From Aequorivita soesokkakensis (GTDB lineage Bacteria > Bacteroidota > Bacteroidia > Flavobacteriales > Flavobacteriaceae), in NCBI RefSeq assembly GCF_001641085.1, contig NZ_LXIE01000051.1:1-41773 (forward strand): a stretch of DNA of 41,773 bases. The letters are read 5' to 3'. Position 1 is the first letter of the stretch, and each line of letters starts with the position of its first letter. The position numbers and the translations under genes were made by a program. Under the pieces are notes generated by a model. The model was not told the origin of the DNA. It did not search any database and saw nothing but the letters and a program-made list of their open reading frames with translations. Of the stretch, positions 1,309 through 18,730 are shown piece after piece.

Positions 1309-3675
1309 ATGACTAAAGAAAAAAAGGAATTTCCATTAAAAATAAAAATAGGCTTCAAAAAAGTGTTTGATGCCTATAGGGAAAAAGCGGGAGAAAGTGA
1401 TTTATTAAAAAAGCAGGTTTCAGAAATACTTTCTCTGGAAAAAGATTACCCAGCTTTGACTTCTGGAATTTCTGATTTTGAAAAAATTTCAAAATATAAA
1501 GAGCAGATCGATATAATTCTAAATCCGTTATTTCCTTCAGTATTGGAAAACAATGAAATTAAATTTGCTACAATTCCCTTTCAAGAAGTAGCTTTTAAAA
1601 GCACACAACGATACAAGGATATTCTGAAAAATGCCGGGAAAGATTTTTCCATGGACATCATAAATTTTGATGAGGATCAATTTTATATTATGGGCTGTAG
1701 CCTAATTTTGAGTCATCATTACGGCGAAAAGGTAGATTTTAAGCGTTCCTTTTATTACAATATTCCAGATGGAAATGGAATGGTTAAAAACTATAGATTG
1801 TTTTATAATGCCGATTTTGTTGAAATCCAAAAAACAGCAAAGGCAAAAGAAATTTCACAGGACGATATAAATGAATTGCTGGAAAGCTTTGAGGACGTTT
1901 CAGTTTGGAAAGAAAAATTTCCTCCCGGAAGCTGGATTTTTAATGGTTTTGTAATTGCGACATTAACAGACGTTACAACGGATGTGTCCATTTCCGAATT
2001 CAAAACCAATTTGCTCCGTTTGGAAAAAAATGGCGGATTTCACAATACCGAGTTCAGCCGTATTTTTCGGGCCATTTTCAATCTGAAGGAGCTCATGATT
2101 GGTTTTACGGATTATAACGAAGAAAATGAATCTTTTGAGCGTACGCTTTTCAAGGAGATTCCAAGTTTTATTCTTCAAGGGAAAAAATCACAGGTCAGCA
2201 AAGATGCGCTTTGCAGTGCTTCCTATTATACACTCTTCAAGCAAAAGGAATTTTATTGCGTAACGGATGCCGAGAGGTATCATAAAATGTATCCCGAAAA
2301 TCTGCTGTATAAAAAAATGCTGGATCAGGGAATGAAAAGCGCCATTTTTGCCGCTATCGTTTCAGATGAAAAAATTCTTGGGGTGTTGGAACTCGTTTCT
2401 CCAAACGCCAATGCGCTTAACACCATAAACGCCAATAAACTTCGGGATATTATGCCTTTTCTTATTGATTCGGTAGTGCGATCAAAGGAAAATTTTGAAA
2501 ACGAACTGGAACTGATAATCCAAGAAGAATGTACGGCCATTCACAGCAGTGTGCAATGGAAATTCCGCAAGGAGGCAAAACGCTATTTAACGTCCTTAAC
2601 AGAGGGAAACCCGACGTTTTTCCGCGAAATAGTTTTTGAGGATGTACACCCACTTTACGGACAAACCGATATAAAAGGTTCATCGGAAGCTCGAAATTTA
2701 GCTACAAAGCAAGATTTAAAGTTACAGTTGACCTATATAGAAACTGTATTGAAAAAATTATCCAATCATACTTTCTTGCCCATTCTTGAGCAAATGAATT
2801 TTACCATCACTGGCTATTTGAAAGAAATAGATGAGAATCTACAGGTAGATACCGAAAGGAATATCATGAATTTTCTGATTTCCGAAATTGTACCGTTTTT
2901 TAAATATATAAGGGAGAGAAATGAAACGTTTAAACAGTTGGTTGATGAATATTATGAACTTATAGATTCAGACACAGGGCTCGTCTATAAAAACAGGAAA
3001 GATTATGATGAATCGGTTATGCTTATAAACAAGAGGCTCGCTTCGGTATTGGACAAAAAACAGCAGGAAGCCCAAAAAATGTACCCTCATTATTTTGAGC
3101 GATTCAAAACAGATGGCGTAGAGCACAACCTCTATATTGGAGAAGCTATTACTAAGGAAAAATCTTTCAATAAAATATTTCTGAAAAATCTTAAGCTTTG
3201 GCAGTTGCAGATTATTTGCGAAATGGAAAACAATTATTACCGTTTGAAGGATAAACTGCCCGTAGAGCTGGATGTTGCCTCTATGATTTTGGCATTCAAC
3301 GGCTCGCTCTCGCTGAGATTTAGAATGGATGAAAAGCGTTTTGATGTTGATGGCACCTATAATGCACGTTACGAAGTTGTAAAAAAACGTGTGGACAAAG
3401 CAAATATAAAAAACACCGAAGAGCGCATAACTCAACCAGGAAAAATAGCAATTATATATTCCCAAAAAGAAGATGAAGAGGAATATTTAAAGTATATCCA
3501 TTTTCTTCAGCATCAAAAATTGCTTGGGGAAGAAATCGAAATTTTGGAGCTTGAAGATTTGCAGGGTGTTACAGGTTTAAAAGCGCTGCGTGTAACGGTC
3601 CTTTATTCCAAAAACAGTGATAAAGTGAAAGAATATTATACCTACGAGGATTTAATCTCACAAATCGAGGAATAA
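1309..3675 (+). CDS. Large GAF-domain protein of unknown function
   Basis: A 788-aa soluble protein with no signal peptide or membrane segment. Residues of roughly 250-400 look like a GAF sensor domain, including a strand-rich stretch around FAAIVSDEKILGVLELVSP. The rest is mostly helical, with a motif PLYGQTDIKGSSEARN near residue 455 and a conserved-looking block near 680 (FRMDEKRFDVDGTYNARYE). I believe this arrangement recurs in flavobacterial proteins annotated only as GAF-domain proteins. No histidine kinase, GGDEF or cyclase catalytic motifs were found, so it may bind a small ligand and act by protein contacts. It converges on the HD-Pycsar gene, with only three bases between the stop codons. 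Confidence 0.7.
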   Translation: MTKEKKEFPLKIKIGFKKVFDAYREKAGESDLLKKQVSEILSLEKDYPALTSGISDFEKISKYKEQIDIILNPLFPSVLENNEIKFATIPFQEVAFKSTQRYKDILKNAGKDFSMDIINFDEDQFYIMGCSLILSHHYGEKVDFKRSFYYNIPDGNGMVKNYRLFYNADFVEIQKTAKAKEISQDDINELLESFEDVSVWKEKFPPGSWIFNGFVIATLTDVTTDVSISEFKTNLLRLEKNGGFHNTEFSRIFRAIFNLKELMIGFTDYNEENESFERTLFKEIPSFILQGKKSQVSKDALCSASYYTLFKQKEFYCVTDAERYHKMYPENLLYKKMLDQGMKSAIFAAIVSDEKILGVLELVSPNANALNTINANKLRDIMPFLIDSVVRSKENFENELELIIQEECTAIHSSVQWKFRKEAKRYLTSLTEGNPTFFREIVFEDVHPLYGQTDIKGSSEARNLATKQDLKLQLTYIETVLKKLSNHTFLPILEQMNFTITGYLKEIDENLQVDTERNIMNFLISEIVPFFKYIRERNETFKQLVDEYYELIDSDTGLVYKNRKDYDESVMLINKRLASVLDKKQQEAQKMYPHYFERFKTDGVEHNLYIGEAITKEKSFNKIFLKNLKLWQLQIICEMENNYYRLKDKLPVELDVASMILAFNGSLSLRFRMDEKRFDVDGTYNARYEVVKKRVDKANIKNTEERITQPGKIAIIYSQKEDEEEYLKYIHFLQHQKLLGEEIEILELEDLQGVTGLKALRVTVLYSKNSDKVKEYYTYEDLISQIEE

Positions 3676-3678
3676 ATT

Positions 3679-4863
3679 TTATTGTTCCAGATAGAAAAAT
3701 AGGGCAAAGGCAATCAAGGAAATAATAGTTCCCGCCACGAAAATAGTGTAGGTAAGTCTTAAAATCCGGTATTTTCTGTCCAATACTTTTCCCAAAAAGT
3801 ATAAATCCTTTGTAAGCGATTTGTAAACGTAGTTTCTATCTTTCAACAATTCATCAATGGCCCATTCAAATTGGTCGAGTTCCATTTTGTGGAAATTCCC
3901 AAAAAAAGTAAGGTTTACGTTTTGCTTTTCCACATCTTCCTTGGTAAACTCTCCGCGGGTAACATTTGGCCTCGTGGCTATTACTGCCAAAACCATTGTG
4001 ATGGCGCTAAAAAGAACGAATAGGGCAGTGGGTATAATTAAATAATTATTATTGTCCAATTTTGAAATAAGGTTTGAAAGCACTAACGAAATGATAATGG
4101 CATTTACGGAAAGCATAATGTTTGCCTTTGTATCTGCAATGTCACTCAATTTCATATGATTTCTTAAAGCAGTGCGGTAAAAAGTTTGGATTCCGCGTTC
4201 CGGGCTGTCGTTTTTATATTTAGCCTTTAACTTGGCCTTCGTTTTTTCTTTCTGAAATTTCTCTTTGTTCTTTTTTCGCTTATTAAGGAGCTTTGAAAGG
4301 TTTTCTTCCTTAGTGGGTTGCCAGTTTTTCAGGGCATAATCCGTATAAAACTGATGATTCTCCACTAGAACTTTTATGTTTTCTTCAAGCCATTCCTCTG
4401 CAGTATAGTTATGAATATTTTGTGATATATATTCCTGCCTTAAAAACTCGCTGGCTTCTTCAAAATAATCTTTCCCAAAGTGCGAGGAATCCGCATCCCG
4501 AATAATTTTTTCAAGTTCGTTTTGTGGAGTTGTATTTTTGAATTTTGTAGCTAAAATGCAATTTTTCACACCTTCAATTATATCTTCCTCAACGCCTTGT
4601 TTTTTCAAAAAATCAACCGCAATTTTTACACTTTCCTCTTCGTGGTTTTCACGGGAAACGGTATAGCCAGAATCGTGTAGCAAAGCCGCAAAACGTAGTG
4701 TTTTAGCATCTTTAACATCAATTTGGGAGTTTTCAATAATTTCGTTTATACTTTTATAAACACGTTTTGTATGAGTATAATTATGATATATAAACGTGTT
4801 TGGAAGCTTATTTTTAAATAGTTGGAATATAAATTTATCAGTAGCTTCAACAGTAGTGTCCAT
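3679..4863 (-). CDS. HD-domain hydrolase fused to Pycsar-type membrane effector (PycTM/DUF5706)
   Basis: A 394-aa two-part protein. Residues of about 20-190 form an HD phosphohydrolase domain: H27/H31 in the HNYTH motif, the HD doublet at 63-64, H74, and a later aspartate in the IRDADSS stretch. This metal-site pattern is typical of nucleotide or cyclic-nucleotide phosphodiesterases. A lysine-rich linker (about 190-225) leads to a PycTM-type domain with the signature ADTKANIMLSVNAIIIS near 244-260, two adjacent membrane helices and a third at the C-terminus. PycTM proteins are the membrane effectors of cCMP/cUMP anti-phage Pycsar systems. No cyclase gene adjoins, so a role in cyclic-nucleotide sensing plus degradation is an inference. 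It is convergent with the GAF gene. Confidence 0.85.
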   Translation of the reverse strand: MDTTVEATDKFIFQLFKNKLPNTFIYHNYTHTKRVYKSINEIIENSQIDVKDAKTLRFAALLHDSGYTVSRENHEEESVKIAVDFLKKQGVEEDIIEGVKNCILATKFKNTTPQNELEKIIRDADSSHFGKDYFEEASEFLRQEYISQNIHNYTAEEWLEENIKVLVENHQFYTDYALKNWQPTKEENLSKLLNKRKKNKEKFQKEKTKAKLKAKYKNDSPERGIQTFYRTALRNHMKLSDIADTKANIMLSVNAIIISLVLSNLISKLDNNNYLIIPTALFVLFSAITMVLAVIATRPNVTRGEFTKEDVEKQNVNLTFFGNFHKMELDQFEWAIDELLKDRNYVYKSLTKDLYFLGKVLDRKYRILRLTYTIFVAGTIISLIAFALFFYLEQ

Positions 4864-4915: not shown

Positions 4916-7900
4916 ATGAATAAAATTAACATCTTTATAACTTTTGCCGTTGCGGCAATTTTTTCTGGCTGTGCAACTTACGGCCCGCAGTACAAAACAG
5001 GTGAAAATAGCCTCCCCAGTGAAACTTCCGAAAAGGAAATAGACAAAACGTTCTATTTAATAGGAAATGCCGGAAATTCTGGGAATGAAGCTTCAAAATC
5101 CATCCAATCCCTCAAAAAATATTTAGCTGAAAACAATACCGAAGATAGTTATGTTCTGTTCTTGGGAAATAGTTTTTATCCCTCGGGAATGCAGCCAAAG
5201 GACGATGCTTTGAAAAATGAAGCTGAAAAATCTATGGACCAGCAACTTGAAGCTTTAAAGGGATTTAAAGGAAAAATAGTGGTACTTCCCGGCAACCGCG
5301 ATTGGAAAAGTGGGGTGGACGGACTGGAATTGGAAGAAGATTTCCTTAAAGCGAAATTTGACGATGCCGATGTGCTACAACCAAACAATGGCTGTGGTTT
5401 GGAAAGTATAGATATAAATGACAATGTGCATTTGCTCGCGCTGGATACCCAGTGGTTTTTGGAAGATTGGGACGATTATCCAAAAATGAACGATAAGTGC
5501 GACATAAAAACCCGCGATAAATTTTTTATAGAAATTGAGGGCGAACTAAAGAAAAATGCCAATAAAACCATTATTGTCGCACTGTACCATCCGCTTATTA
5601 CCTACGGAGAGCACGGCGGAAAATACCCGCTGATACACAAAGACTTTTTCAGCACATTTATCAAACAAGTTAAAATTCAAGGCGCGATTTCCAAACAGGA
5701 TCGTTATAATGAACGCTATAATGAATTGGCCGATAGGTTAAAAGTACTTACTAAGGATGTTGACCGTCTTGTGTTTGTTTCTGGATCGGATGAGTCGCTA
5801 CAATATATTGAGAACGGTTCGGTAAAACAAATTGTTTCCGGTGCCGGTTCTGGCGCAACTGCGGCTGCTTTGGGACAGTTTGGGGAATTTTCTTATGGAG
5901 GACAAGGTTTTGCAAGACTTGATGTTGAAAAAAACGGCGCATCGGAAGTGCGCTTTTTTAAAGCGAATGACGATGGAACTTCAGCTTTAGTTTTTCAAAA
6001 GAAAATATTTGATGCTGAAAAGCAATATGATTTTTCCACACTTCACGAAAATTTTCCGCCAACTACAAAAGCAAAGATTTACACAGATGAAATGGTTGAA
6101 AAAACGGGCTTCTACAAAACCGTTTGGGGAAAACATTACCGTAATATTTATGGCACAGATGTAACCGCTAAGAATGTACTTTTGGATACGCTTTATGGCG
6201 GACTAAAAGTAGTAAGGGCCGGAGGCGGCCACCAAACCCGCTCACTCAGGTTGGAGGATAAAGAAGGAAAAACTTACAATATGCGCGCTCTTAAAAAAAG
6301 CGCTGTGCAATTTCTACAGACTGTTATAATTAAGGACAAAATGGTAGAAGATGATTTTCGAAATACAATTCCGGAAGATTTAATCCTTGATTTTTATACC
6401 GCCGCACATCCCTATGGTGCTTTTACAATTCCCCAGTTATCGGACGCTGCTGGAATTCTTCACACAAACCCAAAACTGTATTATGTGCCAAAGCAAAAAG
6501 CCCTCGGAAAATATAATGAGGAATATGGCAATGAACTTTATATGATTGTGGAAAGGCCCGACAAGGAATTTGACGGCAAAATTTTCGGTTATCCCGATGA
6601 TGTGGAAAGCACGGACGATTTGCTTGCAAAACTTCGCGAGGATGAAAAATACAAACTGGATGAAAAAGCCTATATCCGTGCCAGGGTTTTCGATATGTTG
6701 ATTGGCGATTGGGACCGTCACAATGACCAATGGCGTTTTGCCCAACACAAAGATGACGATGGAAATTCTTTGTTTGTGCCCATTCCGAGAGATCGGGACC
6801 AAGTTTATTCAAATTTTGATGGCGGTTTGCTAGACGTGGTTAGAACCTTGTTCAACACATCGCGACAATTTCAGGTTTATGGCGAAGAGCTTAAGCACAC
6901 TAAATGGTTCAATGCGGCTGGTATAAAACTGGATCACGCTTTGATCCAAAACTTTGGAAAGGAAGCTTGGCTGGAACAGGCCGCAATCATCCAAAATAAC
7001 GTTACCGATCAAGTAATTGAAAGTGCTTTTAAGGACCTTCCGAAAGAAGCCCAGGATGAAACCGCAGCAGAAATAAAGCAAAAACTAAAAGGAAGACGCG
7101 ATAATATAGTGAAAATTGCGGGAGAATATTATGATTATCTCGCCAAACTGCAAGTAATCACAGGAACCGATAAGGATGATTATATTGAAATTACACGCCT
7201 GCCGGAAGGAAAAACAAGTATAAAAACTTACAGAATAAAAAATGGCGAAAAGGGAGATTTAATGGTCGACAGAACTTTTGATGCGAAGGAAACCAAGGAA
7301 ATTTGGGTGTATGGTTTGGACGACGACGATGTGTTTGAAGTGAAGGGAGACGGAAACAATCCAATTTTCTTAAGAATTATTGGAGGTCAAAACAACGATA
7401 CCTATAAAATTACCAACGGCAGAAAAGTGAAGGTTTACGATCAAAAAAGTAAAAAAAATACCGTGGAGGAAAAAGGTGGGGCTACTTTCCGATTTACTGA
7501 CAACTATGACTACAATACTTTTGATTACAAAAAACAAATTCAGTCTGTAAATTTATTTCTGCCGGTCATAGCTTTTAATCCAGATGATGGTCTTAAATTA
7601 GGCTTTTCGGATCTTTTCACTGTAAATGGTTTTCAACGAAATCCGTTTTCACAACAGCATCGTGTTGCCTTTGGGTATTATTTTGCTACGCAAGGATTTG
7701 ATGTGAATTACGAAGGAGAGTTTGCCAATATTTTCGGAAATTGGAATTTCTTGATTGGCGGCTATTTCCAAAATGCGAATTTTTCAGAGAATTATTTTGG
7801 TACTGGAAATGAAACCATAAACCCAGATTATGAATTTGATATTGGACTGGATTATAATCGTGTAAGAATAGGTGGTTATGGTGCTTCCTTTGGATTTAAA

Positions 7901-8593
7901 AAAGATACACCTTATGGAAGCAAATTTCAATTCAAGGCAATTTTTGATGCAATTGAAGTAGAGGGAACGGATGATAGATTTATATCAGAAGTAATTCCTG
8001 CCCCGACGGAATTGGACGAGACCAAAAATTTTGTAACCGCTGAAGGAATTTATCAGTACGAAAGTTATGATAATAAAATAAACCCAACCCGAGGAATGGA
8101 CTTTTCATTGGTTGCCGGGGGAACGCAAAATATAGAAGATAGTGAACGGATTTTCGGTTATGTGAAACCTTCAATTATATTCTATAACGCTATTACAAGG
8201 GATAGAAAATTGGTTTTGAAAACAGACGTACGCGGACAGTTTAATATTGGAAACAATTACGAGTTTTATCAGGGCGCACAGTTAGGTAGCGATACAGGAT
8301 TAAGAGCTTACAGAAATGAGCGTTTTACCGGTAGAAGTGCAGCTGTTGCCGGCGCTGACCTTCGTTATAGCTTCAATAAATTCCGTACCGCTTTGACCCC
8401 TGTGCAAATAGGTATTTTTGGTGGGTATGATGTAGGAAGGGTTTGGGTTCCGAATGATACTTCAGATGTTTTTCACAGCTCTTATGGAGGAGGACTTTGG
8501 GTAAACACAGCAGATTTGTTGAGTGGAACCTTCAATTTATTTAGTGGGGAAGAAGGATTGCGTTTCACTTTCGGCTTGGCGTTTTCAATGTAA
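4916..8593 (+). CDS. Giant outer-membrane lipoprotein: degenerate phosphoesterase, kinase-like middle domain, Omp85-type barrel
   Basis: A 1225-aa protein with a lipobox-type signal (FSGC, Cys19). Residues 43-360 align with the calcineurin-like phosphoesterase of the next gene, but the metal ligands are gone: GDA is GNA (50-52), GDN is GNS (84-86), GNHE is GNRD (126-129) and GHDH is GSDE (290-293). It is therefore probably not a working phosphatase. The middle domain (about 410-740) has a glycine-rich segment AGGGHQTRSLRL, then RALKK, GDWDRHNDQW (597-606) and PIPRDRDQ (622-629), an order resembling HipA/CotH-type atypical kinases. From about 880 to the end is a surface-antigen/Omp85-type barrel with GLRAYRNERFTG. 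It lies 7 bases upstream of its paralogue and is presumably cotranscribed with it. The kinase reading is inference. Confidence 0.8.
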   Translation: MNKINIFITFAVAAIFSGCATYGPQYKTGENSLPSETSEKEIDKTFYLIGNAGNSGNEASKSIQSLKKYLAENNTEDSYVLFLGNSFYPSGMQPKDDALKNEAEKSMDQQLEALKGFKGKIVVLPGNRDWKSGVDGLELEEDFLKAKFDDADVLQPNNGCGLESIDINDNVHLLALDTQWFLEDWDDYPKMNDKCDIKTRDKFFIEIEGELKKNANKTIIVALYHPLITYGEHGGKYPLIHKDFFSTFIKQVKIQGAISKQDRYNERYNELADRLKVLTKDVDRLVFVSGSDESLQYIENGSVKQIVSGAGSGATAAALGQFGEFSYGGQGFARLDVEKNGASEVRFFKANDDGTSALVFQKKIFDAEKQYDFSTLHENFPPTTKAKIYTDEMVEKTGFYKTVWGKHYRNIYGTDVTAKNVLLDTLYGGLKVVRAGGGHQTRSLRLEDKEGKTYNMRALKKSAVQFLQTVIIKDKMVEDDFRNTIPEDLILDFYTAAHPYGAFTIPQLSDAAGILHTNPKLYYVPKQKALGKYNEEYGNELYMIVERPDKEFDGKIFGYPDDVESTDDLLAKLREDEKYKLDEKAYIRARVFDMLIGDWDRHNDQWRFAQHKDDDGNSLFVPIPRDRDQVYSNFDGGLLDVVRTLFNTSRQFQVYGEELKHTKWFNAAGIKLDHALIQNFGKEAWLEQAAIIQNNVTDQVIESAFKDLPKEAQDETAAEIKQKLKGRRDNIVKIAGEYYDYLAKLQVITGTDKDDYIEITRLPEGKTSIKTYRIKNGEKGDLMVDRTFDAKETKEIWVYGLDDDDVFEVKGDGNNPIFLRIIGGQNNDTYKITNGRKVKVYDQKSKKNTVEEKGGATFRFTDNYDYNTFDYKKQIQSVNLFLPVIAFNPDDGLKLGFSDLFTVNGFQRNPFSQQHRVAFGYYFATQGFDVNYEGEFANIFGNWNFLIGGYFQNANFSENYFGTGNETINPDYEFDIGLDYNRVRIGGYGASFGFKKDTPYGSKFQFKAIFDAIEVEGTDDRFISEVIPAPTELDETKNFVTAEGIYQYESYDNKINPTRGMDFSLVAGGTQNIEDSERIFGYVKPSIIFYNAITRDRKLVLKTDVRGQFNIGNNYEFYQGAQLGSDTGLRAYRNERFTGRSAAVAGADLRYSFNKFRTALTPVQIGIFGGYDVGRVWVPNDTSDVFHSSYGGGLWVNTADLLSGTFNLFSGEEGLRFTFGLAFSM

Positions 8594-8600
8594 ATGATGT

Positions 8601-11600
8601 ATGATTTTTAAAAAGGTTTACTTTCTATTTTTTATTGTTTTTATTTCTTCCTGTGCTACTTATGCGCCGCAGTTTAAGGATAAAGAAGCAAATCCAGTAT
8701 ATCCTTCGGAAAAAAAAATAGAAAAAACCTTTTATTTGGTAGGTGATGCCGGGCTTTCCCCTATGGGCGGGATGAGCGATGCGCTTATTACATTTCAGAA
8801 CTATCTCAAAAACGAAAAAACGTCCGGAAACTATACAATTTTCTTAGGAGATAATATTTATCCTGCAGGAATGGATCCCGAAGGCCATCCGCGCCGAAAG
8901 GAATCTGAAAATATGATAGATGCCCAACACAAAGCTGTGGTCAATTATAATGGGCAGACTATCTTCATTCCCGGAAACCATGAATGGTACAATGGTGGCG
9001 TTTTGGGCGTTGCCCGTGAAGAGAATTATGTGGAATCCAAATTTCCCGAACAGGATGCTTTTAGACCAAGCAATGGTTGCCCTTTGGAAAGTATTGAGGT
9101 TTCCGATAATATTCAATTGATTATCATCGACACGCAATGGTTTTTGGAAGACTGGGACAAAAACCCAACCATCAATGAAATGTGCGATATAAAAACCCGT
9201 GAAAAGTTTTTTATTGAACTTCAACTGGAACTTGAAAAAAACCAAAACAAGACCGTAGTTTTTGCCATGCACCACCCCATGTTTACGAATGGAAACCATG
9301 GGGGCTACTTTGCTTTGGAAAAACACCTATATCCAACCCAGAAAAAAATTCCCTTGCCTATTTTGTCTTCACTGATTGTTCAGGTTCGTTCCCAAGGTGG
9401 CGTTTCTGTTCAGGATAGATACAATGAGCTTTATAATAATTTAATGACCCGTTTACAGCAACTTGTAAAAAACAACAAACGTCTTGTTTTTGTTTCAGGG
9501 CATGACCACAATCTACAGTATATTGAAAAAGAGGGTTTTCATCAGATTGTTTCGGGTGCTGGGTCTAAAGAATCTTATGCAGCTACTGGTGAAGACGGTT
9601 TTTTTAGTACAGGAAAACAAGGATTTGCTGTTTTGGATGTTTTTGATGATGGCTCATCCTGGGTGCGCTATTATGTGAAAGGGGAAAATTATAAGCCAGA
9701 ACTTCTTTTTCAGAAGGAAGTTATCCCCGCTTCTAAAAATTTTGATGTATCAAAATATCCTGAAATATTTCCTCAGGAATATACAGTGCCTATTTATAAA
9801 CAGGACAGCATCAGCGAACCCTTATTTTTCAAAACTGTTTGGGGCGCCAAATACAAGCAGGCCTATTCCCAACCGGTAAATGCTAAAGTAGCTTCTTTGG
9901 ACACCCTTTTTGGAGGATTGCGAGTTGTGCAGGAAGGAAATGAAGGAGATTATAATTCATTATTGCTGGCTGATAAAAATGGCAATCAGTATAGGATGCG
10001 GGCCATGCAAAAGAACGCTTTACAGATTTCAAAAAAACTGGTTTTTGAAGATAACAACACCAAACCTTCCGAAGTGGAAAAACCTGACGTGCCTTCTCTA
10101 AAAGGACAGAATGCTAGTTTTTATACCGCTTCGCATCCGTATGCGGTAATGGCAATACCAGATATGGCTCAGGCAATAAATGTTTTTTATACAACCCCTC
10201 AATTATTTTATGTGCCGAAGCAGAAACGTTTGGGTAATTACAATGAAAATTTTGGGGACGATCTGTACCTTATATCCATAGAACCTTCCGAAAGGAGTGA
10301 AGGGGAAGGACTTTTTAAATATCCCGACGATGTGGAAACCACGGATGATATTTTGATAAAACTACGCAAAACAGGAAATGTTTTCGTGGACGAGGAAAAC
10401 TATATAAAGTCCAGACTTTTTGATATGTTAATTGGCGATTGGGACCGTGAGCCTGACCATTGGCAATGGGCAGAATATTACAACAGCTACAAAAAAAATG
10501 TATATGTGCCCATCCCCAAAAACCGGGATAATGCTTTTTCAAGCTTTGATGGAAATATTTTCGACTTTACGCGTTCGTTATTTAATGGGTCTAAGCAAAC
10601 ACACGTTTATGGAAAGAATCTGACAGATCTAAGATGGTTTAATAAAGAAGGTGTAATTCTGGACAGGGCATTGCTTGAAAATTCAGGTCGGGGCCAGTGG
10701 AAATATCTCGCCAAAGTGTTACAGGATAGTATTACGGACTCTGTAATTGAAAAGGCTTTTGGCAAAATTCCTCAGGAAGTACAGGATGAATCTTTGGAAG
10801 AAATTAAGCAGAAACTGAAAGCCCGCAAAAAAAATCTGGTTGAAATTGCGGATAGTTATTACACCTACCTTTCCACGTTGCAGACCATTATTGGAACAGA
10901 TTATGACGATCTTTTTGAAATTACCCGTATGCCGGACGGAAAAACGAATATTAGAAGTTTTACTACCATAAACGGTGTTAAATCTGACACTTTAACGGAC
11001 CGGACCTATTCAAATAAAGACACCAAAGAAATCTGGATATACGGTCTTGGCGGAAAAGATAAATTTACCGTAACTGGAAAAGAGAACAACTTGATTTACA
11101 TCCGTATTATTGGAGGGCAGGATGAAGATATTTATAGCTTGAAAGAGGGACGAAGGGTAAAGGTGTATGATTATGAAAGCAAACCAAGTATTGTAGAAGA
11201 AAAGGAGGGCGGAACCCTTCGTTTTACGGATGTGTATAATTTGAACACGTATGACTATCGGAAACAGATTGACCGTTCGCAGGGCTTGGTTTCCGCAATT
11301 GGTTACAATCCCGATGATGGGTTTAGGGCCGCGCTGCAATACGTATATCGGGTAGATAATTTTCAGCGAAATCCCTTTTCACAGAAACATGTGGTGAATG
11401 CGGCTTATTTCACTGACATCAACAGTTTTGAACTTTCCTATTCCGGGGAATTTGCAAATATCCAAGACGACCTGAACCTCAGCTTTGGCGCCAGACTTAC
11501 GAGTCCAAATTTTAAAATGAACTTTTTTGGCTTCGGAAACGAGACACAGAACTTTCAAGACAGCGAAGGTTTTGAATATAATAGGGTTGAAGTGCAGCAT

Positions 11601-12311
11601 ATTTCTGCAAATATTGGACTGCTTCGCAATAGTAACTTTGGTAGTTTCTTCAAACTGCAAACCACTTTTGATGGGTATGAAGTGAACAATTCGCCAACAA
11701 ATTTTATTTCGAATATAAATTTGGAGAACAAAGGGGAAACCAATTTTTTTGGGACTTTGGAAGGAATTTATAACTATAGGAGCTATGACGATATTTTAAA
11801 TCCAACATTAGGGATGCTCTTTGATTTGAACGTGGGAATAACAGATAACCTGAAAGATACTGATGATATTTTTGGGTTTATAAAATCGCGAATTGGGTTT
11901 TACAATACCTTGGTGAAAAATAGAACTTTGGTGTTGAAGACAACCGTGAATTACCAACTTAATATTGGGGACAGATACCAGTTTTACCAAGCTGCTAATT
12001 TGGGTGGGGATAATGGCTTGAGAGGGTATAGGGAACAACGCTTTACCGGAAAGTCATTTTTGGTGGGCAGCGCAGATGTACGGTACAGCCTTCCAAAATT
12101 TAAGATTGGTTTGATTCCGTTGCAAACCGGAATTTTTGCAGGAACAGATTTGGGAAGGGTTTGGTTACCTGAGGAAGATTCCAAAAAATGGCATAATTCC
12201 TATGGCGGTGGATTTTGGATTACGGGCTCAGGAGGATTAAATGCTAACTTAAGCCTCTTTAATTCTATTGAAGGAACAAGGCTTACTTTTGGACTGGGAT
12301 TTGATTTTTAA
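8601..12311 (+). CDS. Giant outer-membrane lipoprotein: intact calcineurin-like phosphoesterase, divergent middle domain, Omp85-type barrel
   Basis: A 1236-aa tandem paralogue of the preceding gene. It has a lipoprotein signal (ISSC). The phosphoesterase motifs are complete: VGDAG (D49), GDN (83-85), GNHEW (125-129), MHHP (223-226), NGNHGG and GHDH (300-303), so metal-dependent phosphatase activity at the periplasmic side or cell surface is plausible. The middle domain is degenerate compared with the upstream copy: the glycine loop is EGNEGDYNSL, and the DRH motif is DREPDHW (615-621). The C-terminal barrel has GLRGYREQRFTG, close to the (V/I)RG(F/Y) loop motif of Omp85 proteins, and ends in a hydrophobic/aromatic strand (LGFDF). 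The substrate is unknown. A strong hairpin terminator follows 31 bases after the stop. Confidence 0.85.
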   Translation: MIFKKVYFLFFIVFISSCATYAPQFKDKEANPVYPSEKKIEKTFYLVGDAGLSPMGGMSDALITFQNYLKNEKTSGNYTIFLGDNIYPAGMDPEGHPRRKESENMIDAQHKAVVNYNGQTIFIPGNHEWYNGGVLGVAREENYVESKFPEQDAFRPSNGCPLESIEVSDNIQLIIIDTQWFLEDWDKNPTINEMCDIKTREKFFIELQLELEKNQNKTVVFAMHHPMFTNGNHGGYFALEKHLYPTQKKIPLPILSSLIVQVRSQGGVSVQDRYNELYNNLMTRLQQLVKNNKRLVFVSGHDHNLQYIEKEGFHQIVSGAGSKESYAATGEDGFFSTGKQGFAVLDVFDDGSSWVRYYVKGENYKPELLFQKEVIPASKNFDVSKYPEIFPQEYTVPIYKQDSISEPLFFKTVWGAKYKQAYSQPVNAKVASLDTLFGGLRVVQEGNEGDYNSLLLADKNGNQYRMRAMQKNALQISKKLVFEDNNTKPSEVEKPDVPSLKGQNASFYTASHPYAVMAIPDMAQAINVFYTTPQLFYVPKQKRLGNYNENFGDDLYLISIEPSERSEGEGLFKYPDDVETTDDILIKLRKTGNVFVDEENYIKSRLFDMLIGDWDREPDHWQWAEYYNSYKKNVYVPIPKNRDNAFSSFDGNIFDFTRSLFNGSKQTHVYGKNLTDLRWFNKEGVILDRALLENSGRGQWKYLAKVLQDSITDSVIEKAFGKIPQEVQDESLEEIKQKLKARKKNLVEIADSYYTYLSTLQTIIGTDYDDLFEITRMPDGKTNIRSFTTINGVKSDTLTDRTYSNKDTKEIWIYGLGGKDKFTVTGKENNLIYIRIIGGQDEDIYSLKEGRRVKVYDYESKPSIVEEKEGGTLRFTDVYNLNTYDYRKQIDRSQGLVSAIGYNPDDGFRAALQYVYRVDNFQRNPFSQKHVVNAAYFTDINSFELSYSGEFANIQDDLNLSFGARLTSPNFKMNFFGFGNETQNFQDSEGFEYNRVEVQHISANIGLLRNSNFGSFFKLQTTFDGYEVNNSPTNFISNINLENKGETNFFGTLEGIYNYRSYDDILNPTLGMLFDLNVGITDNLKDTDDIFGFIKSRIGFYNTLVKNRTLVLKTTVNYQLNIGDRYQFYQAANLGGDNGLRGYREQRFTGKSFLVGSADVRYSLPKFKIGLIPLQTGIFAGTDLGRVWLPEEDSKKWHNSYGGGFWITGSGGLNANLSLFNSIEGTRLTFGLGFDF

Positions 12312-12341
12312 TAAAAGAATTAAGAGCCAAAATACAAGGCT

Positions 12342-12380
12342 AAAAAACGGGAAGAAATTCTAAATTCCTTCCCGTTTTTT
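12342..12380. terminator. Bidirectional rho-independent terminator between convergent genes
   Basis: A 13-base perfect inverted repeat (AAAAAACGGGAAG and CTTCCCGTTTTTT) flanks a 13-base spacer that can itself pair partly. It has T-runs on both strands, so it can stop transcription from the phosphoesterase pair on the left and from dps on the right. Confidence 0.9.
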
Positions 12381-12400
12381 ATAAATTCTAATAATGAAAA

Positions 12401-13072: not shown

Positions 13073-13861
13073 ATGAAAACTAATTTGTCTGTAGCTATTC
13101 AAGCTGCTTTGGATGCAGGAAAGGAAATCCTTAAAATTTACGATACAGATTTCAGCGTAGAGACAAAAGGCGATGATTCTCCTTTAACTCAAGCTGATAA
13201 AAATGCAAATGATGTAATAAACGTTTTTTTAAAACCAACTAATATCCCCATTATTAGTGAAGAAAACCGTCAACTTGATTTTTCGGAAAGAAAGGATTGG
13301 AACCAATGCTGGATCGTAGATCCGCTGGATGGCACTAAGGAATTCATAAAAAGAAATGGTGAATTTACCGTAAACATTGCACTGGTTGAAAATGGCAACC
13401 CAGTGCTTGGCGTAATTTACGTGCCTGTTTCGAAAGAACTATTTTTTACTTCGGAAGACGGAAAGACCTCTAAAAAAATCACGCTTACATCAGGAACACT
13501 TTCAATAGAGGAAATTTTAGAAAAAGCTTCAATAATTAAGCCTTCAAATGTTGTTCCCCCAATAAAGATTGTGGGCAGTCGTTCCCATTTAAATGAGGAT
13601 ACGGAAAAATTTATAGCTGAAATAGAAAAGGAGAATAAAGTGGAAATTGTTTCAAAAGGAAGTTCTCTAAAATTCTGTTTGGTTGCCGAAGGTTTGGCGC
13701 ACATATATCCACGCTATGCCCCAACTATGGAATGGGATACTGCGGCTGGACACGCCATTTGTAAAGCGGCTGGTGTTAATGTGATTGACCAATATACAGG
13801 AAAACCGATGCAATACAACAAGCCAAACTTATTGAATAACTATTTTGTAGTAAAAGCCTAA
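13073..13861 (+). CDS. cysQ: 3'(2'),5'-bisphosphate nucleotidase CysQ
   Basis: An inositol-monophosphatase-fold enzyme of 262 aa that hydrolyses PAP, the by-product of PAPS-using reactions, to AMP. The lithium-sensitive metal site is clear: ISEEN (61-65), IVDPLDGTKEF (81-91) and WDTAAGHAI (221-229). It is the first gene of the block cysQ-DUF2061-cysC-cysD-cysN, and its stop codon overlaps the next ATG by one base. With three sulfotransferases downstream, PAP removal is likely its main task, since PAP inhibits sulfotransferases. Confidence 0.93.
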   Translation: MKTNLSVAIQAALDAGKEILKIYDTDFSVETKGDDSPLTQADKNANDVINVFLKPTNIPIISEENRQLDFSERKDWNQCWIVDPLDGTKEFIKRNGEFTVNIALVENGNPVLGVIYVPVSKELFFTSEDGKTSKKITLTSGTLSIEEILEKASIIKPSNVVPPIKIVGSRSHLNEDTEKFIAEIEKENKVEIVSKGSSLKFCLVAEGLAHIYPRYAPTMEWDTAAGHAICKAAGVNVIDQYTGKPMQYNKPNLLNNYFVVKA

Positions 13862-14286
13862 TGCAAGACCAATCCCGAAAAAGGCATATTGCCAAAGCCA
13901 TTACGTGGCGCATCGTTGGTACTATTGATACCATTGTGCTTTCGTGGATTATCACCGGCAACCCTTTAACAGGGTTAAAGATTGGTTTGGCTGAAGTGGT
14001 TTCCAAAATGGTTTTATATTATATACACGAACGTGTTTGGTTCAAGATCAATCTTTCCAAAAAAGGAATTGTTCGCGAAAGCAGAAAGCGTCATATTGCC
14101 AAAACCTTTACCTGGCGTGGGGTTGGAACGTTGGACACCATGTTGCTTTCTTGGTTGGTTACCGGAAATCCATTAACTGGACTCAAGATTGGTCTTTCAG
14201 AACTTTTAACGAAAATGATTTTATATTATCTTCACGAAAGAGTTTGGTACAGAACTAATTACGGATTAAAAAATAGAGTAAAATAA
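13861..14286 (+). CDS. Doubled DUF2061 membrane protein
   Basis: A 141-aa protein made of two tandem copies of a DUF2061-like unit of about 62-66 residues. Copy one starts SRKRHIAKAITWR and copy two (from about residue 73) starts SRKRHIAKTFTWR. Each continues with a hydrophobic segment, the shared TGNPLTGLKIGL block and a final YY(I/L)HERVW. The hydrophobic parts suggest four short membrane segments or two hairpins. The biochemical role of DUF2061 is unknown. Its place between cysQ and cysC with overlapping or nearly touching ends ties it to sulfate activation, for example as a sulfate permease partner or a scaffold, but this is inference. Confidence 0.85.
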   Translation: MQDQSRKRHIAKAITWRIVGTIDTIVLSWIITGNPLTGLKIGLAEVVSKMVLYYIHERVWFKINLSKKGIVRESRKRHIAKTFTWRGVGTLDTMLLSWLVTGNPLTGLKIGLSELLTKMILYYLHERVWYRTNYGLKNRVK

Positions 14287-14287
14287 T

Positions 14288-14887
14288 ATGGAAGAAAATG
14301 TAGTTCCACATAATTTCAGCATCACCCAAGCAGAGAGAAGTGCTTTAAAAAACCATGGCGCGTTTCTTATTTGGTTTACGGGGCTTTCGGGCTCTGGAAA
14401 ATCTACCATTGCGAACGTGTTGGAAAAGGAACTTATCTCACAAAACATACATACCTATCTTTTGGATGGAGACAACGTAAGGAAAGGCTTGAACAACAAT
14501 CTGTCCTTTTCACCAGAAGATAGATCTGAAAACATTCGAAGAATTGCTGAAGTGTCCAATTTAATGGTGGATGCAGGCTTGGTAGTGCTCGCTTCGTTCG
14601 TTTCGCCTTACAGAGAGGATCGCGAAAATGTGAAACGCATAGTTGGATATGATAATTTTGTTGAAATTTTCGTGAATACACCCATTGAAGAGTGTGAGCG
14701 CAGAGACGTAAAGGGATTATATGAAAAGGCGAGAGCTGGCGAAATAAAAAATTTTACAGGTGTTAATGCTCCATACGAAGCACCCATGGCGCCAGATATT
14801 GAAATTGACACCACTATGGTTTCTGTGGATGCAGCAGTTGCTATTATTTTAAAAACGATAAAGAAAAAATTGAAAGGAAATGAGTAA
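14288..14887 (+). CDS. cysC: Adenylylsulfate (APS) kinase CysC
   Basis: A 199-aa stand-alone APS kinase that phosphorylates APS to PAPS. It carries the P-loop GLSGSGKST (32-40), the APS-binding stretch LDGDNVRKGLNNNL followed by FSPEDRSENIRR, and the lid element SPYREDRE. The next gene, cysD, starts eight bases before this one ends, so translation is probably coupled. Making PAPS rather than reducing APS fits use by the downstream sulfotransferases. Confidence 0.95.
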   Translation: MEENVVPHNFSITQAERSALKNHGAFLIWFTGLSGSGKSTIANVLEKELISQNIHTYLLDGDNVRKGLNNNLSFSPEDRSENIRRIAEVSNLMVDAGLVVLASFVSPYREDRENVKRIVGYDNFVEIFVNTPIEECERRDVKGLYEKARAGEIKNFTGVNAPYEAPMAPDIEIDTTMVSVDAAVAIILKTIKKKLKGNE

Positions 14888-15785
14888 GTATTATCTTAAT
14901 TATTTGGACGAATTGGAAAGCGAAGCCATCTATATCCTTCGGGAAGTATGGGCGCAGTTTCAAAACCCTGTGATTTTATTTTCAGGAGGAAAAGATTCAA
15001 TTCTTGTAACGCATTTGGCGAAGAAAGCATTTTATCCTTCTAAAATTCCTTTTCCACTAATGCATGTGGATACAGGGCATAATTTCCCGGAAACCATTCA
15101 ATTTCGTGATGATTTAATAAAGGAATTGGGAGCCCAATTAATTGTAGGTTCAGTACAGGAATCTATTGATGCTGGAAGAGTTGCGGAAGAAAAAGGGAAG
15201 AATGCTACAAGAAATGCACTTCAAATTACAACTTTGCTTGATGCAATAGAAACCAATAAAGTGGACTGCGCCATTGGCGGTGGAAGACGTGACGAGGAAA
15301 AGGCACGAGCTAAGGAACGTTTCTTTTCACACCGTGACGATTTTGGCCAATGGGATCCAAAGAACCAACGCCCTGAACTTTGGAATTTACTTAACGGAAA
15401 ACATTTTGAAGGCGAGCATTTCCGTGCTTTTCCAATTAGTAATTGGACCGAAATGGATGTTTGGAATTATATAAAAAGAGAAGATATAAAAATTCCTTCC
15501 TTGTATTTGGCACACCAACGCGAAGTAGTTTGGCGAAGCAATTCGTGGATACCGATTTCCGAATATTTGAAATTGGAAGAAGGCGAAGAAATTCAAACAA
15601 AGAAAATACGTTTCAGGACTTTGGGAGATATCACTATTACGGGCGGAATAGAATCTGATGCGGACACTTTGGAAAAAATTGTAGCAGAGGTTGCTGCAAT
15701 GAAACAAACGGAGCGTGGTAACAGAAGCGACGATAAGCGTAGTGAAACCGCTATGGAAGATAGAAAAAGACAAGGATATTTTTAA
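14880..15785 (+). CDS. cysD: Sulfate adenylyltransferase subunit 2 CysD
   Basis: The 301-aa ATP-sulfurylase catalytic subunit, which makes APS from sulfate and ATP. It belongs to the PP-loop family: SGGKDS at 35-40, HVDTGHNFPET, GGGRRDEEKARAKER, and the C-terminal basic tail ending in DRKRQGYF typical of CysD. It forms a complex with CysN, whose GTP hydrolysis drives the reaction. It overlaps cysC by eight bases and is 12 bases before cysN. Confidence 0.96.
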   Translation: MSKYYLNYLDELESEAIYILREVWAQFQNPVILFSGGKDSILVTHLAKKAFYPSKIPFPLMHVDTGHNFPETIQFRDDLIKELGAQLIVGSVQESIDAGRVAEEKGKNATRNALQITTLLDAIETNKVDCAIGGGRRDEEKARAKERFFSHRDDFGQWDPKNQRPELWNLLNGKHFEGEHFRAFPISNWTEMDVWNYIKREDIKIPSLYLAHQREVVWRSNSWIPISEYLKLEEGEEIQTKKIRFRTLGDITITGGIESDADTLEKIVAEVAAMKQTERGNRSDDKRSETAMEDRKRQGYF

Positions 15786-15797
15786 TAGAAAAGAGTT

Positions 15798-17054
15798 ATG
15801 GAAATTGACAAGAATCAGTTATTAAGATTTACAACCGCAGGAAGTGTGGACGATGGAAAAAGCACACTAATTGGAAGGTTACTGTATGATAGCAAAGCAA
15901 TATTTGAAGACCAACTTGAAGCTGTAGAAAATACAAGTAAGAAGAAAGGCCACGAAGGTGTGGATCTCGCACTTTTCACAGATGGTTTGAAGGACGAAAG
16001 AGAACAGGGGATAACTATCGATGTTGCATATAGATATTTTACAACCCCAAAACGGAAATTTATTATAGCCGATACTCCGGGCCATATTCAGTACACTCGA
16101 AATATGGTTACAGGTGCTTCTACTGCAAATGCAGCTTTGATTTTGATAGATGCGCGTCACGGTGTAATTGAACAAACGAAGAGGCATGCTTTTATTGCTT
16201 CATTATTGCAAATTCCGCATATTATTGTTTGTATCAATAAGATGGATTTGGTGGATTATTCCGAAGAGATTTATGAAAACATCATCCATCAATTTGAGGA
16301 GTTTTCTTCAAAACTATATGTAAAAGACATTCAGTTTCTTCCAATAAGCGCATTGGATGGCGATAATGTGGTGAACCGTTCCACGAATATGGATTGGTAT
16401 CAAGGTGCACCATTATTGCACACTTTGGAAACGATGCACATCAGTAGCGACATCAATAAAATAGATGCCCGTTTTCCAGTGCAAACAGTGTTGCGCCCAC
16501 AGCGCGAAGGTTTTATAGATTATAGAGGCTATGCTGGCCGTGTGGCTAGTGGGATTTTTAGACCTGGTGATGACGTAGTTGTTATGCCTTCTGGTTTTAC
16601 TTCAAAAATAAAAGACATTGACAGTATGGATGGGAGTTTGGAAGAAGCTTTTGCACCAATGTCTGTTTCAATTACGTTAGAAGATGATATAGACATTAGC
16701 CGCGGCGATATGATTGTAAAGGAAAACAATATGCCCACATCTGTACAGGAGTTTGATGCAATGTTATGTTGGTTCAATAATAGTCCAGCCCGTGAACGTG
16801 CAAAATATACTATTATGCACACATCAAATGAGCAAAAGGCAATGATTAAGGAAGTGGTTTATAAAATAGACATCAATACCTATGCTCGTGAAGAAAATAA
16901 CAAAGAGTTAAAAATGAACGATATTGCTCGAATCACCATCCGTACAACAAGACCGTTGATGGTAGATGAATATCGTGACAATAGAATTACAGGTAGTTTT
17001 GTATTGATAGATGATGCTACCCATGAAACTGTTGCAGCGGGAATGATTGTTTAA
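15798..17054 (+). CDS. cysN: Sulfate adenylyltransferase subunit 1 CysN (GTPase)
   Basis: The 418-aa EF-Tu-like GTPase subunit of ATP sulfurylase. G motifs: AGSVDDGKST (14-23), DTPGH (92-96) and NKMD (147-150). These are followed by beta-barrel domains II and III. It has no CysC fusion at the C-terminus, consistent with the separate cysC upstream. It is the last gene of the sulfate-activation block. A 91-base gap follows, where the sequence turns sharply more AT-rich. Confidence 0.96.
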   Translation: MEIDKNQLLRFTTAGSVDDGKSTLIGRLLYDSKAIFEDQLEAVENTSKKKGHEGVDLALFTDGLKDEREQGITIDVAYRYFTTPKRKFIIADTPGHIQYTRNMVTGASTANAALILIDARHGVIEQTKRHAFIASLLQIPHIIVCINKMDLVDYSEEIYENIIHQFEEFSSKLYVKDIQFLPISALDGDNVVNRSTNMDWYQGAPLLHTLETMHISSDINKIDARFPVQTVLRPQREGFIDYRGYAGRVASGIFRPGDDVVVMPSGFTSKIKDIDSMDGSLEEAFAPMSVSITLEDDIDISRGDMIVKENNMPTSVQEFDAMLCWFNNSPARERAKYTIMHTSNEQKAMIKEVVYKIDINTYAREENNKELKMNDIARITIRTTRPLMVDEYRDNRITGSFVLIDDATHETVAAGMIV

Positions 17055-17145
17055 AAGCTCTATCTACTTGAGATAAAAATATTTGAGCATTTTTCTTTAG
17101 AAAAAATTGCCATACTTTTAGAGTGCTTCATAAAGGACTGTAATA
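17055..17145 (+). other. Gap between cysN and the first sulfotransferase gene
   Basis: Ninety-one non-coding bases. It holds a weak nested hairpin (AAAAGCTC pairing with GAGCATTTT, with TATCT/AGATA inside) that could be a weak terminator. It also has TACTTTTA at 17113-17120, a poor -7 box without a well-placed TTG. Whether transcription continues from cysN cannot be told. Confidence 0.3.
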
Positions 17146-18144
17146 ATGTCAATACCGAAATATAATTTTATTTTTTTATTACATGTCTCTAGATCTGGAA
17201 GCACTTATTTATCTCGCCTATTAGCAGAAAATTGTGGTAATCTGGCTGTTATTTCTGAAACCAATTATTTCAGGATATTAATTGCCCATCAAAAAATTTA
17301 CAAGGAATATCAGCCTAATAAACTGGCAAATCTCATACTTGAAGACCCAAAATTTAAAGCCTTTAAATTTTCATACGCAGAAGTATTGAAACAACTTCAA
17401 AGGTGTGATAATCATAAACAGGCTATTTTTTCTGTAACAAAAATGATTTTGGAAAAATTGCAAATTGAAAATATAAATAATGTACTTATAAAAGATGGCG
17501 GTCTTGTGGATTTTATGCCCGAAATAGCATCGCAATTTGAAGAATTTAAAATTATTCATATAAAAAGGGATCCAAGGGCTTGTATTAATTCCATACTACA
17601 TACACCAAAGGCATTTTATAAAGGCAGATCCAGCATGGGATGGGATGATATTGAGTTTTGTGTCAATCAATATCAAAAGTATATGGGTAAAATGGAGCGG
17701 ATAAGTTTGTCAATCGGAAGTATTTTGACAATAGCCTATGAAGATTTGGTTAAGGACAAAAATCAAGTTGTTCAAAATGTAATAACATATTTAAAATTAC
17801 AGCCTTCTACAGAAGATAAAACTAGAACAGATAATTATTTGCGCAAACAGGAATTTAGAATACATAGAAATATATATAGATCTTCCCAAATAGAAAGAAC
17901 AGATGCCTGGCAAAAGGAACTTAAGAAATGGGAAATTATATATATTGAATCAAGGCTAAAATCTTTGATACCAAATCCTTCTATACTTCATAAAAAATCA
18001 AATTTATTGGTTTCTATGTTTTTAGCAAAAAAAAATCATTTAATGGGAATGATTAACCTAAATATCTATAGAATAAGAAGATACTTACTAAAAGGAAATC
18101 TGAATATGTTTTTTTTAAAGGTTAGATTAAAGGCAAATAGGTAA
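17146..18144 (+). CDS. Sulfotransferase (PAPS-dependent), type A
   Basis: A 332-aa cytosolic sulfotransferase-fold protein. The 5'-phosphosulfate loop is SRSGSTYLSRL (15-25), and the 3'-phosphate site is IKRDPRACINS (139-149), with the arginine and serine that hold PAPS. The rest is poorly recognisable, as usual for acceptor-binding parts. By family it transfers sulfate from PAPS to a hydroxyl or amine, and the context (glycosyltransferases, Wzx) points to a glycan acceptor. Its sequence differs from the other two sulfotransferases here (RSGST rather than K-GTT loop). It opens the AT-rich part of the locus. Confidence 0.85.
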   Translation: MSIPKYNFIFLLHVSRSGSTYLSRLLAENCGNLAVISETNYFRILIAHQKIYKEYQPNKLANLILEDPKFKAFKFSYAEVLKQLQRCDNHKQAIFSVTKMILEKLQIENINNVLIKDGGLVDFMPEIASQFEEFKIIHIKRDPRACINSILHTPKAFYKGRSSMGWDDIEFCVNQYQKYMGKMERISLSIGSILTIAYEDLVKDKNQVVQNVITYLKLQPSTEDKTRTDNYLRKQEFRIHRNIYRSSQIERTDAWQKELKKWEIIYIESRLKSLIPNPSILHKKSNLLVSMFLAKKNHLMGMINLNIYRIRRYLLKGNLNMFFLKVRLKANR

Positions 18145-18163
18145 TTTATAATTTTATTTAATA

Positions 18164-18730
18164 ATGATTTTATTCGAAAAAGGAAAATACAAATTATCGC
18201 GGATGCTTTTGAATTTTAAAAGTATTAGTGACCATACAGGTATCTATATTGGCAAAGGTTCAAAAATTGCAAATAATACTTTTATCAATGACGGTACCCG
18301 GATAAACGGAAAAATAGTTATTAAGGGAAAGGGGTATACCAAAATTGGAAAATATTGTGCTATTGGCGATGGTATTAAAATAATTTCATCTAATCACGAT
18401 TCTGGAGTAGTAAACTTGCAATATGCTCTGCAAAAAAAAATACTTAAAAATACCGCGATTTCATCAAAAAGAGATGTTACTATCGGCCATAACGTTTGGA
18501 TTGGAGATAACGTGATTATTCTAGCTGGAGTCAGTATAGGAAATGGGGCTATTATAGCCGCTGGATCTGTTGTCACAAAAAATATTCCCGAATATTCAGT
18601 GTTTGGTGGCGTACCTGCAAAATTTATAAAAACTCGATTTGATAATGAAAAAATTGATGAGATAGAAACATCAAAATGGTGGGATTGGTCACTTGATAAA
18701 ATGCAAGAAAATCGATCTTTTTTTGAATAA
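18164..18730 (+). CDS. Left-handed beta-helix (hexapeptide) acyltransferase
   Basis: A 188-aa member of the hexapeptide-repeat acetyltransferases (maltose acetyltransferase/WcaF type). Repeats run from about residue 22 to 150, including VTIGHNVWIGDNVIILAG, VSIGNGAIIAAGSVV and the ending VFGGVPAKFIKTRF. SSNH (75-78) supplies the usual catalytic histidine region. It probably O-acetylates a sugar of the repeat unit. It could instead modify an amino sugar, but it does not look like PglD. It lies 19 bases after the sulfotransferase and directly abuts the flippase gene. Confidence 0.85.
   Translation: MILFEKGKYKLSRMLLNFKSISDHTGIYIGKGSKIANNTFINDGTRINGKIVIKGKGYTKIGKYCAIGDGIKIISSNHDSGVVNLQYALQKKILKNTAISSKRDVTIGHNVWIGDNVIILAGVSIGNGAIIAAGSVVTKNIPEYSVFGGVPAKFIKTRFDNEKIDEIETSKWWDWSLDKMQENRSFFE

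Follow-up and report, generated by a model that had tools for sequence, protein, structure and literature searches.

Why should a bacterium keep two giant paralogous genes side by side when each seems to lack an active site that the other retains? The question is raised by a window of 41,773 nucleotides from Aequorivita soesokkakensis (contig NZ_LXIE01000051.1, positions 1 to 41,773 of the forward strand; "the window" is this whole stretch), in which copy 1 (4916..8593, + strand, 1225 amino acids) is followed by copy 2 (8601..12311, + strand, 1236 amino acids). Each encodes a predicted lipoprotein made up of a phosphoesterase-like domain, a middle domain with a predicted kinase-like fold, and an Omp85-type barrel. 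Judged by their residues, copy 1 has lost the phosphatase site and kept the kinase-like site, whereas copy 2 has kept the phosphatase site and carries an altered kinase-like site. We consider it probable that a bifunctional outer-membrane ancestor was duplicated and that its copies lost opposite sites, a case of duplication, degeneration, and complementation.

Two collinear genes with opposite site losses

A first-pass annotation of the window had described two paralogues with the same three-part layout, 7 bases apart, and both the coordinates and an end-to-end alignment agree with it. The open reading frames (ORFs) are both open and start with ATG, the gap occupies 8594..8600 on the + strand, and the copies are collinear over their full length (571/1242 identities, 46%). 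None of the terminator-like sites listed falls within the gap, and a terminator-like stem of 19 pairs lies 3' of copy 2 (12341-12381). A lipobox cysteine follows a hydrophobic stretch in both proteins (Cys 19 and Cys 18; loose pattern), which by this pattern are predicted lipoproteins. A search of the source genome found no third copy.

Motifs of both enzyme domains occupy equivalent alignment positions, with no offset. Given as copy 1/copy 2, the phosphatase motifs in register are GNAG/GDAG, GNSFY/GDNIY, GNRDW/GNHEW, YHP/HHP, and GSDES/GHDHN, and those of the middle domain are GGGHQTRSL/EGNEGDYNSL, DRHNDQW/DREPDHW, and PRDRDQ/PKNRDN, the last pair being additional to those recognized at first. 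A frameshift, misassembly, or misalignment might produce such a pattern, and one congener (G310) does have a split copy 2. With both ORFs intact and the pair present in 18/28 genomes of the genus, however, we regard an artefact as exceedingly improbable: motifs in register rule out misalignment, and congeners with the same pair rule out the rest.

Purple acid phosphatases bind metal through seven ligands, D, D, Y, N, H, H, and H, distributed over five motifs. All seven were found in copy 2, which had indeed been credited with the full set, in a domain at 8718..9716 (+ strand) with motifs GDAG (8742-8753), GDNIY (8847-8861), GNHEW (8973-8987), HHPM (9270-9281), and GHDHN (9498-9512). Pfam matches this domain to PF00149 at 5e-07. 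The corresponding domain of copy 1 (5036..6028, + strand, identified by alignment with copy 2) has no Pfam match to PF00149; its motifs are GNAG (5063-5074), GNSFY (5165-5179), GNRDW (5291-5305), YHPL (5585-5596), and GSDES (5783-5797). The view that copy 1 has lost every metal ligand went slightly too far: five of the seven are gone and the site is lost, but the Tyr and Asn remain. When a 33-row profile of the family domain was compared with the PDB, it matched tartrate-resistant acid phosphatase at 2.9e-08, and the GNHD, H-x-P, and GHDHNLQY stretches of the tartrate-resistant/purple acid phosphatases (2bq8, 1ute) align with it. Unlike those enzymes, the family domain is fused to two further domains, and copy 1 is without five of the seven ligands. 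By these matches the N-terminal domain resembles the purple acid phosphatases.

The middle domain, with a beta-rich linker, spans 6029..7555 in copy 1 (+ strand; supported by the AlphaFold2 model, Foldseek, and motif positions) and 9747..11279 in copy 2 (+ strand). Copy 1 carries RAGGGHQTRSL (6215-6247), NMRALKK (6278-6298), GDWDRHNDQW (6704-6733), and PRDRDQ (6785-6802), and all 12 residues that we scored are present, as the first reading of its motifs had implied. In copy 2 the equivalent stretches are EGNEGDYNSL (9933-9962), GDWDREPDHW (10434-10463), and PKNRDN (10515-10532). The first two had already been noted as departing from the motifs of copy 1. Of the 12 scored residues 5 are replaced, whereas G65, R86, K90, D227, D229, D233, and D257 remain (numbering of a 509-residue middle-domain model). 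On residue evidence, the kinase-like site of copy 2 is altered rather than erased.

The C-terminal domain lies at 7526..8590 in copy 1 and, by alignment, at 11244..12308 in copy 2 (both + strand). The AlphaFold2 model of the copy 1 domain has 16 long strands, with a predicted local distance difference test (pLDDT) score of 84.9, and Foldseek matched it to BamA (2.8e-11) and TamA (1.9e-09). NCBIfam NF047779 reached 50.5 and 54.9 bits in the two copies, below its cut-off of 200, and a sequence search of the PDB with a barrel profile gave no useful match. The model thus predicts a 16-strand barrel of the Omp85 superfamily, of the BamA/TamA type.

Predicted kinase-like fold of the middle domain

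Scans of 66 members against Pfam and of 13 members against NCBIfam gave no credible match for the middle domain, and a sequence search of the PDB with its profile gave nothing useful. Weak Pfam matches to EnY2 (24/66 members, best E 0.00085) and to FAM198 (one member, E 0.063) were taken as chance. HipA_C (PF07804) gave no Pfam match; nor did CotH (PF08757), a family to which the domain may be similar.

The AlphaFold2 model, built from a 66-row alignment of the window and named loci, has a mean pLDDT of 85.8 and a predicted template modelling (TM) score of 0.87. Seven Foldseek matches in the PDB had E <0.001, namely CtkA (4 chains), a bacterial kinase complex, HipA, and ADCK3, the best being CtkA (1.8e-04, probability 1.00). 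The CtkA/HipA-family kinases (3akk, 7vkb, 3tpt; E 1.8e-04 to 6.8e-04) thus head the list, and differ from the family domain in that the latter is extracytoplasmic, fused to a barrel, and without a PF07804 match. Weaker matches among the 50 listed include a FAM20-type Golgi casein kinase (4kqb, E 2.0e-03), PI4K II, RIO2, and JAK2; 7/50 titles show no kinase (Rv3197, MSMEG_1954, a pre-40S chain). In the model two strands flank the GGG loop, the next strand carries R86 and K90, and GDWDRHxDQW and PRDRDQ come before and after two later strands. By order only, the GGG loop, the Lys, GDWDRHxDQW, and PRDRDQ would correspond to the glycine loop, lysine, catalytic loop, and metal-binding acidic residue of a kinase. 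We therefore describe the fold as kinase-like, as a prediction with low TM-scores.

Three points count against a kinase. Query-normalized TM-scores reach 0.33 at best among the 50 listed matches, for a model that includes the beta-rich linker. A comparison (hhalign) with 24 HipA_C relatives was not significant (E 0.26), its best local stretch placing GDWDRHNDQW on N-D-D-H-x-K-N of the HipA relatives. ATP is not known to occur in the periplasm, where a classical kinase would be puzzling. The fold might then be used otherwise, for transfer of adenosine monophosphate (AMPylation) or for ligand binding, with the phosphatase removing that group or acting elsewhere. The extracytoplasmic setting, the lack of a credible sequence match to a kinase family, and the low structural similarity all speak for this alternative, whereas at least 11/12 scored residues, glycine loop, Lys, and acidic residues among them, are present in 177/210 family copies. 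We hold such a use to be possible though doubtful, and continue with a middle domain that would transfer a phosphoryl group (or AMP).

Six Aquimarina loci (L183, L186, L189, L191, L192, L195) have GGGQVT in place of GGGHQT and keep the other scored motifs.

Both sites in most genomes with a single full-length copy

Relatives (E 0.001 or better) were found in 218/299 Flavobacteriaceae genomes and 22/28 genomes of the genus, and the middle domain in 146/395 genomes sampled across the phylum. We fetched 180 stretches and scored the 7 phosphatase ligands and 12 middle-domain residues in each copy, counting a site as lost below 7/7 ligands or below 11/12 middle-domain residues. Matches that were not full-length (21/225), duplicates, L282, and the split copy 2 of G310 were left out and copies from further searches added, giving a final set of 210 full-length copies from 120 genomes, enriched by choice for multi-copy genomes. 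Both sites are present in 83 of these copies; 94 retain the kinase-like site alone and 33 the phosphatase site alone, and no copy lacks both.

The first-pass annotation had proposed asking whether single-copy genomes keep both motif sets. Among genomes that yielded one full-length copy, both sets occur in 44/48; for 18 of the 44 all candidates were scored and gave one full-length match, while for the rest two or three candidates were scored. Two genomes counted as one-copy, G551 and G221, each have a further unscored copy. By their residues, then, single-copy relatives appear to bear both functions. The four exceptions each gave a phosphatase-site-lost copy. In G310 the partner gene is split in two pieces, and in G202, a genome 68% complete, the partner is cut at a contig end; the other two, G289 and G493, are taken up below.

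Genomes with a one-site copy generally hold the other site as well: an intact kinase-like site is present in 33/33 genomes with a kinase-site-lost copy, and an intact phosphatase site in 72/76 with a phosphatase-site-lost copy. In G287 and G076 the kinase-like site is supplied by a copy of a second phosphatase-site-lost group, described below. Among 79 named loci, the split was seen in Aequorivita, Marixanthomonas, Altibacter, and two metagenome-assembled genomes. The 18 genomes of the genus with the pair include the window's own and G310 with its split copy 2. In G317 a gene of the copy-2 type is paired with a member of the second group; G299, G306, and G323 each carry a lone bifunctional gene from another clade, and six gave no match.

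Tree and reciprocal divergence

For the phylogeny, every scored motif column was removed and FastTree was run on 206 rows. In the resulting tree, 32 phosphatase-only copies form one clade (support 100), and 44 kinase-only copies make up the copy-1 clade (support 86). Together with a single bifunctional copy, 93% identical to Leeuwenhoekiella marinoflava, the two form a clade with support 99. A second, separate group holds 44 phosphatase-site-lost copies (support 93), and five lone ones lie elsewhere. Its members include L299-L302, L321, L327, and L340, most of which share their genome with a bifunctional copy; a lipobox was recognized by pattern in 17/44 of this group vs 42/44 of the copy-1 clade. 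The tree suggests that the phosphatase site was lost about seven times and that loss of the kinase-like site, rare in the family, had two origins. The second is in G080, where D229N and H231R altered the site independently, while its congeners G704 and G705 retain both sites.

Each clade has better preserved the domain whose site remains. With scored motif columns excluded, mean identity to 34 bifunctional copies was 54.3% in the phosphatase domain of the copy-2 clade vs 42.9% in that of the copy-1 clade, and 41.1% vs 51.9% in the middle domain; the barrels were equal (44.8% vs 44.3%). Across ten within-genus pairs, the mean nonsynonymous rate (dN) of copy 1 was 0.079 in the phosphatase domain vs 0.043 in the middle domain, and that of copy 2 was 0.052 vs 0.061. 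The ratio of dN to the synonymous rate (dS) was about 0.1 or less in every computable domain comparison, except in one short linker (0.36). Because dS approached or exceeded saturation in many of these pairs, and for each copy could not be defined in two of them, we prefer the identities to the ratios. The low dN/dS argues that the lost-site domains are not decaying freely.

A shared genomic slot

Immediately 5' of the pair lies a divergent HD-PycTM gene (3679..4863, - strand). A homologue was found in 75/91 loci; in 72/75 it lies 5' of the closest gene of the family, in the opposite orientation. It is the neighbor at 30/30 split pair or triple loci and at 42/49 loci with a bifunctional gene as the only full-length copy. 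Loci with this neighbor include three single bifunctional Aequorivita loci (L080, L081, L082), where the bifunctional gene replaces the pair. This common neighbor indicates that split pair and single gene occupy the same slot. A gene of 788 amino acids without a Pfam match (1309..3675, + strand) occurs in 65/91 loci, always with the HD-PycTM gene. A functional link of the two genes with the locus is possible.

Points against the proposed split and rival explanations

The proposal that the two genes divided the activities of a bifunctional ancestor, already made in the first-pass annotation, is supported by the tree, the common slot, the reciprocal divergence, and the single-copy genomes. Several observations weigh against it. 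G289 and G493 are real exceptions among the one-copy genomes: G289 has only a phosphatase-site-lost copy, no phosphatase-site copy having been found there, and the single copy of G493 has two ligands changed. The node joining the bifunctional sister to the copy-1 clade has a support of 72, and 39/204 inner nodes have support <80. The copy-1 clade includes copies from G010, G087, G144, G189, and G206, which also have a bifunctional copy; the clade may be older than the split, and these partners weaken the case for a simple tandem duplication in place. The phosphatase site has been lost in about six other places of the tree, often beside a bifunctional copy. Finally, the kinase-site-lost copies are not uniformly degraded: K90, D229, and D257 are retained in 32, 32, and 30 of the 33, and E231, H234, and N255 are common to 29, 29, and 28 of them.

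The last point bears on neofunctionalization, in which the middle site of copy 2, and perhaps also the phosphoesterase site of copy 1, has gained a new activity or ligand. E231, H234, and N255 represent a new state that is conserved and does not look like random decay, so the activity may be changed rather than lost, and the low dN/dS, one short linker apart, shows no domain freely decaying. On the other side, the altered middle domain is the most diverged (41.1% identity against 51.9%), and the glycine-rich loop of the kinase-site-lost copies varies widely, as would be expected of loss more than of a new tight site; the loss in G080, moreover, came through a different residue, D229N. We judge a gain of new function rather unlikely, though a changed activity of the copy 2 site is a serious rival.

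The repeated losses bear on another alternative, in which no functional exchange took place: the phosphatase site is readily lost in duplicates, and the loss of the kinase-like site in copy 2 was a tolerated chance event. About seven groups of phosphatase-site-lost copies are in keeping with this, as are the 33 genomes with one such copy beside a bifunctional copy and the 6 with two. The reciprocal loss first noted is present in the pair, but its phosphatase half is common among family paralogues and not peculiar to these two genes. Mechanistically, however, this account is a neutral form of the same split, and it predicts neither the reciprocal protection of the kept domains nor the genus-wide tandem order. 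It seems to us unlikely, and a little more so than neofunctionalization.

A model for the pair

For the split of a bifunctional gene that we favor, the ancestor would have been a single lipoprotein of the outer membrane that combined a purple-acid-phosphatase-type site with a kinase-fold domain and an Omp85-type barrel. Most simply, it would both have written phosphate onto one envelope substrate and erased it again, the two enzyme domains being held at the outer membrane by the lipid anchor and the barrel. The gene would have been duplicated in the lineage that comprises Aequorivita and related genera, and the copies would have lost opposite sites. Probably the extra copy lost its phosphatase site first and the resident copy lost its kinase-like site later. 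This order is suggested by the more recent case of G080: both G080 and G704 also have a phosphatase-site-lost copy, which was probably there first. Today the kinase-like site would come from copy 1 and the phosphatase site from copy 2. Since the lost-site domains appear to be under purifying selection, they are probably scaffold or regulatory pseudo-domains. The two proteins, whose genes are 7 bases apart, probably act together and may associate physically, as the first-pass annotation had suggested.

Tentatively, and with somewhat less than even confidence, we suggest that the family represents an outer-membrane modification switch in Bacteroidota, in which one polypeptide adds a group by a kinase family not recognized before and removes it by a purple-acid-type phosphatase, and that in the Aequorivita lineage the switch was split into two enzyme/pseudo-enzyme proteins. 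If so, it might act on an envelope substrate, the group being phosphoryl or nucleotidyl, a suggestion that we make just as guardedly.

Relation to known proteins and un-fused relatives

The Omp85 'Metallo' subfamily was defined with PF00149, a domain termed a metalloprotease there (Heinz and Lithgow, 2014; PMC4104836). It resembles the present family in that PF00149 precedes an Omp85-type barrel and POTRA domains are absent; in the parts of that article covered here, the word kinase is absent and lost-site copies are unmentioned. Likewise, the parts covered of PMC10281475, PMC4104836, PMC10202324, PMC12611786, and PMC12045153 hold no description of a kinase domain or a split, and our literature search, with most subscription journals outside its coverage, found neither a kinase domain reported for these proteins nor the split. 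A Riemerella metallophosphoesterase was not equated with the family, being listed among type IX secretion system effectors in a review (PMC10202324).

The findings point to a kinase-fold family, unmodelled in the Pfam and NCBIfam releases searched, that lies outside the cytoplasm and is joined to a phosphatase and an Omp85-type barrel. One-site copies of each kind, both-site copies, and a three-gene version amount to natural separation-of-function alleles, with which it becomes directly testable what outer-membrane enzymes write and erase. As a bacterial example of duplicates that have reciprocally lost sites, the pair is also a clean one, and within a single genus the kinase-like site was lost a second time.

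The three-gene version is found at L291:2949-7094, where middle domain, phosphatase, and barrel are encoded by three neighboring genes on the same strand; in the first two, lipobox-like signals were recognized by eye. This un-fused set of the three domains supports their joint function. Middle domain and barrel occur without a phosphatase at L289, L293, L297, L298, and L306; the kinase-like motifs are degenerate at L293:3549-6128 and L306:4477-7134. Stand-alone middle-domain ORFs of 428-446 amino acids were seen in Aequorivita and other genera (L312-L315), with an N-terminal hydrophobic anchor in L312-L314.

Downstream of the pair, at 13073-18730, the window contains genes for an inositol-phosphatase-family protein, adenosine 5'-phosphosulfate (APS) kinase, 3'-phosphoadenosine 5'-phosphosulfate (PAPS) reductase, a GTPase, a sulfotransferase, and a hexapeptide transferase, a cluster for sulfate activation and transfer.

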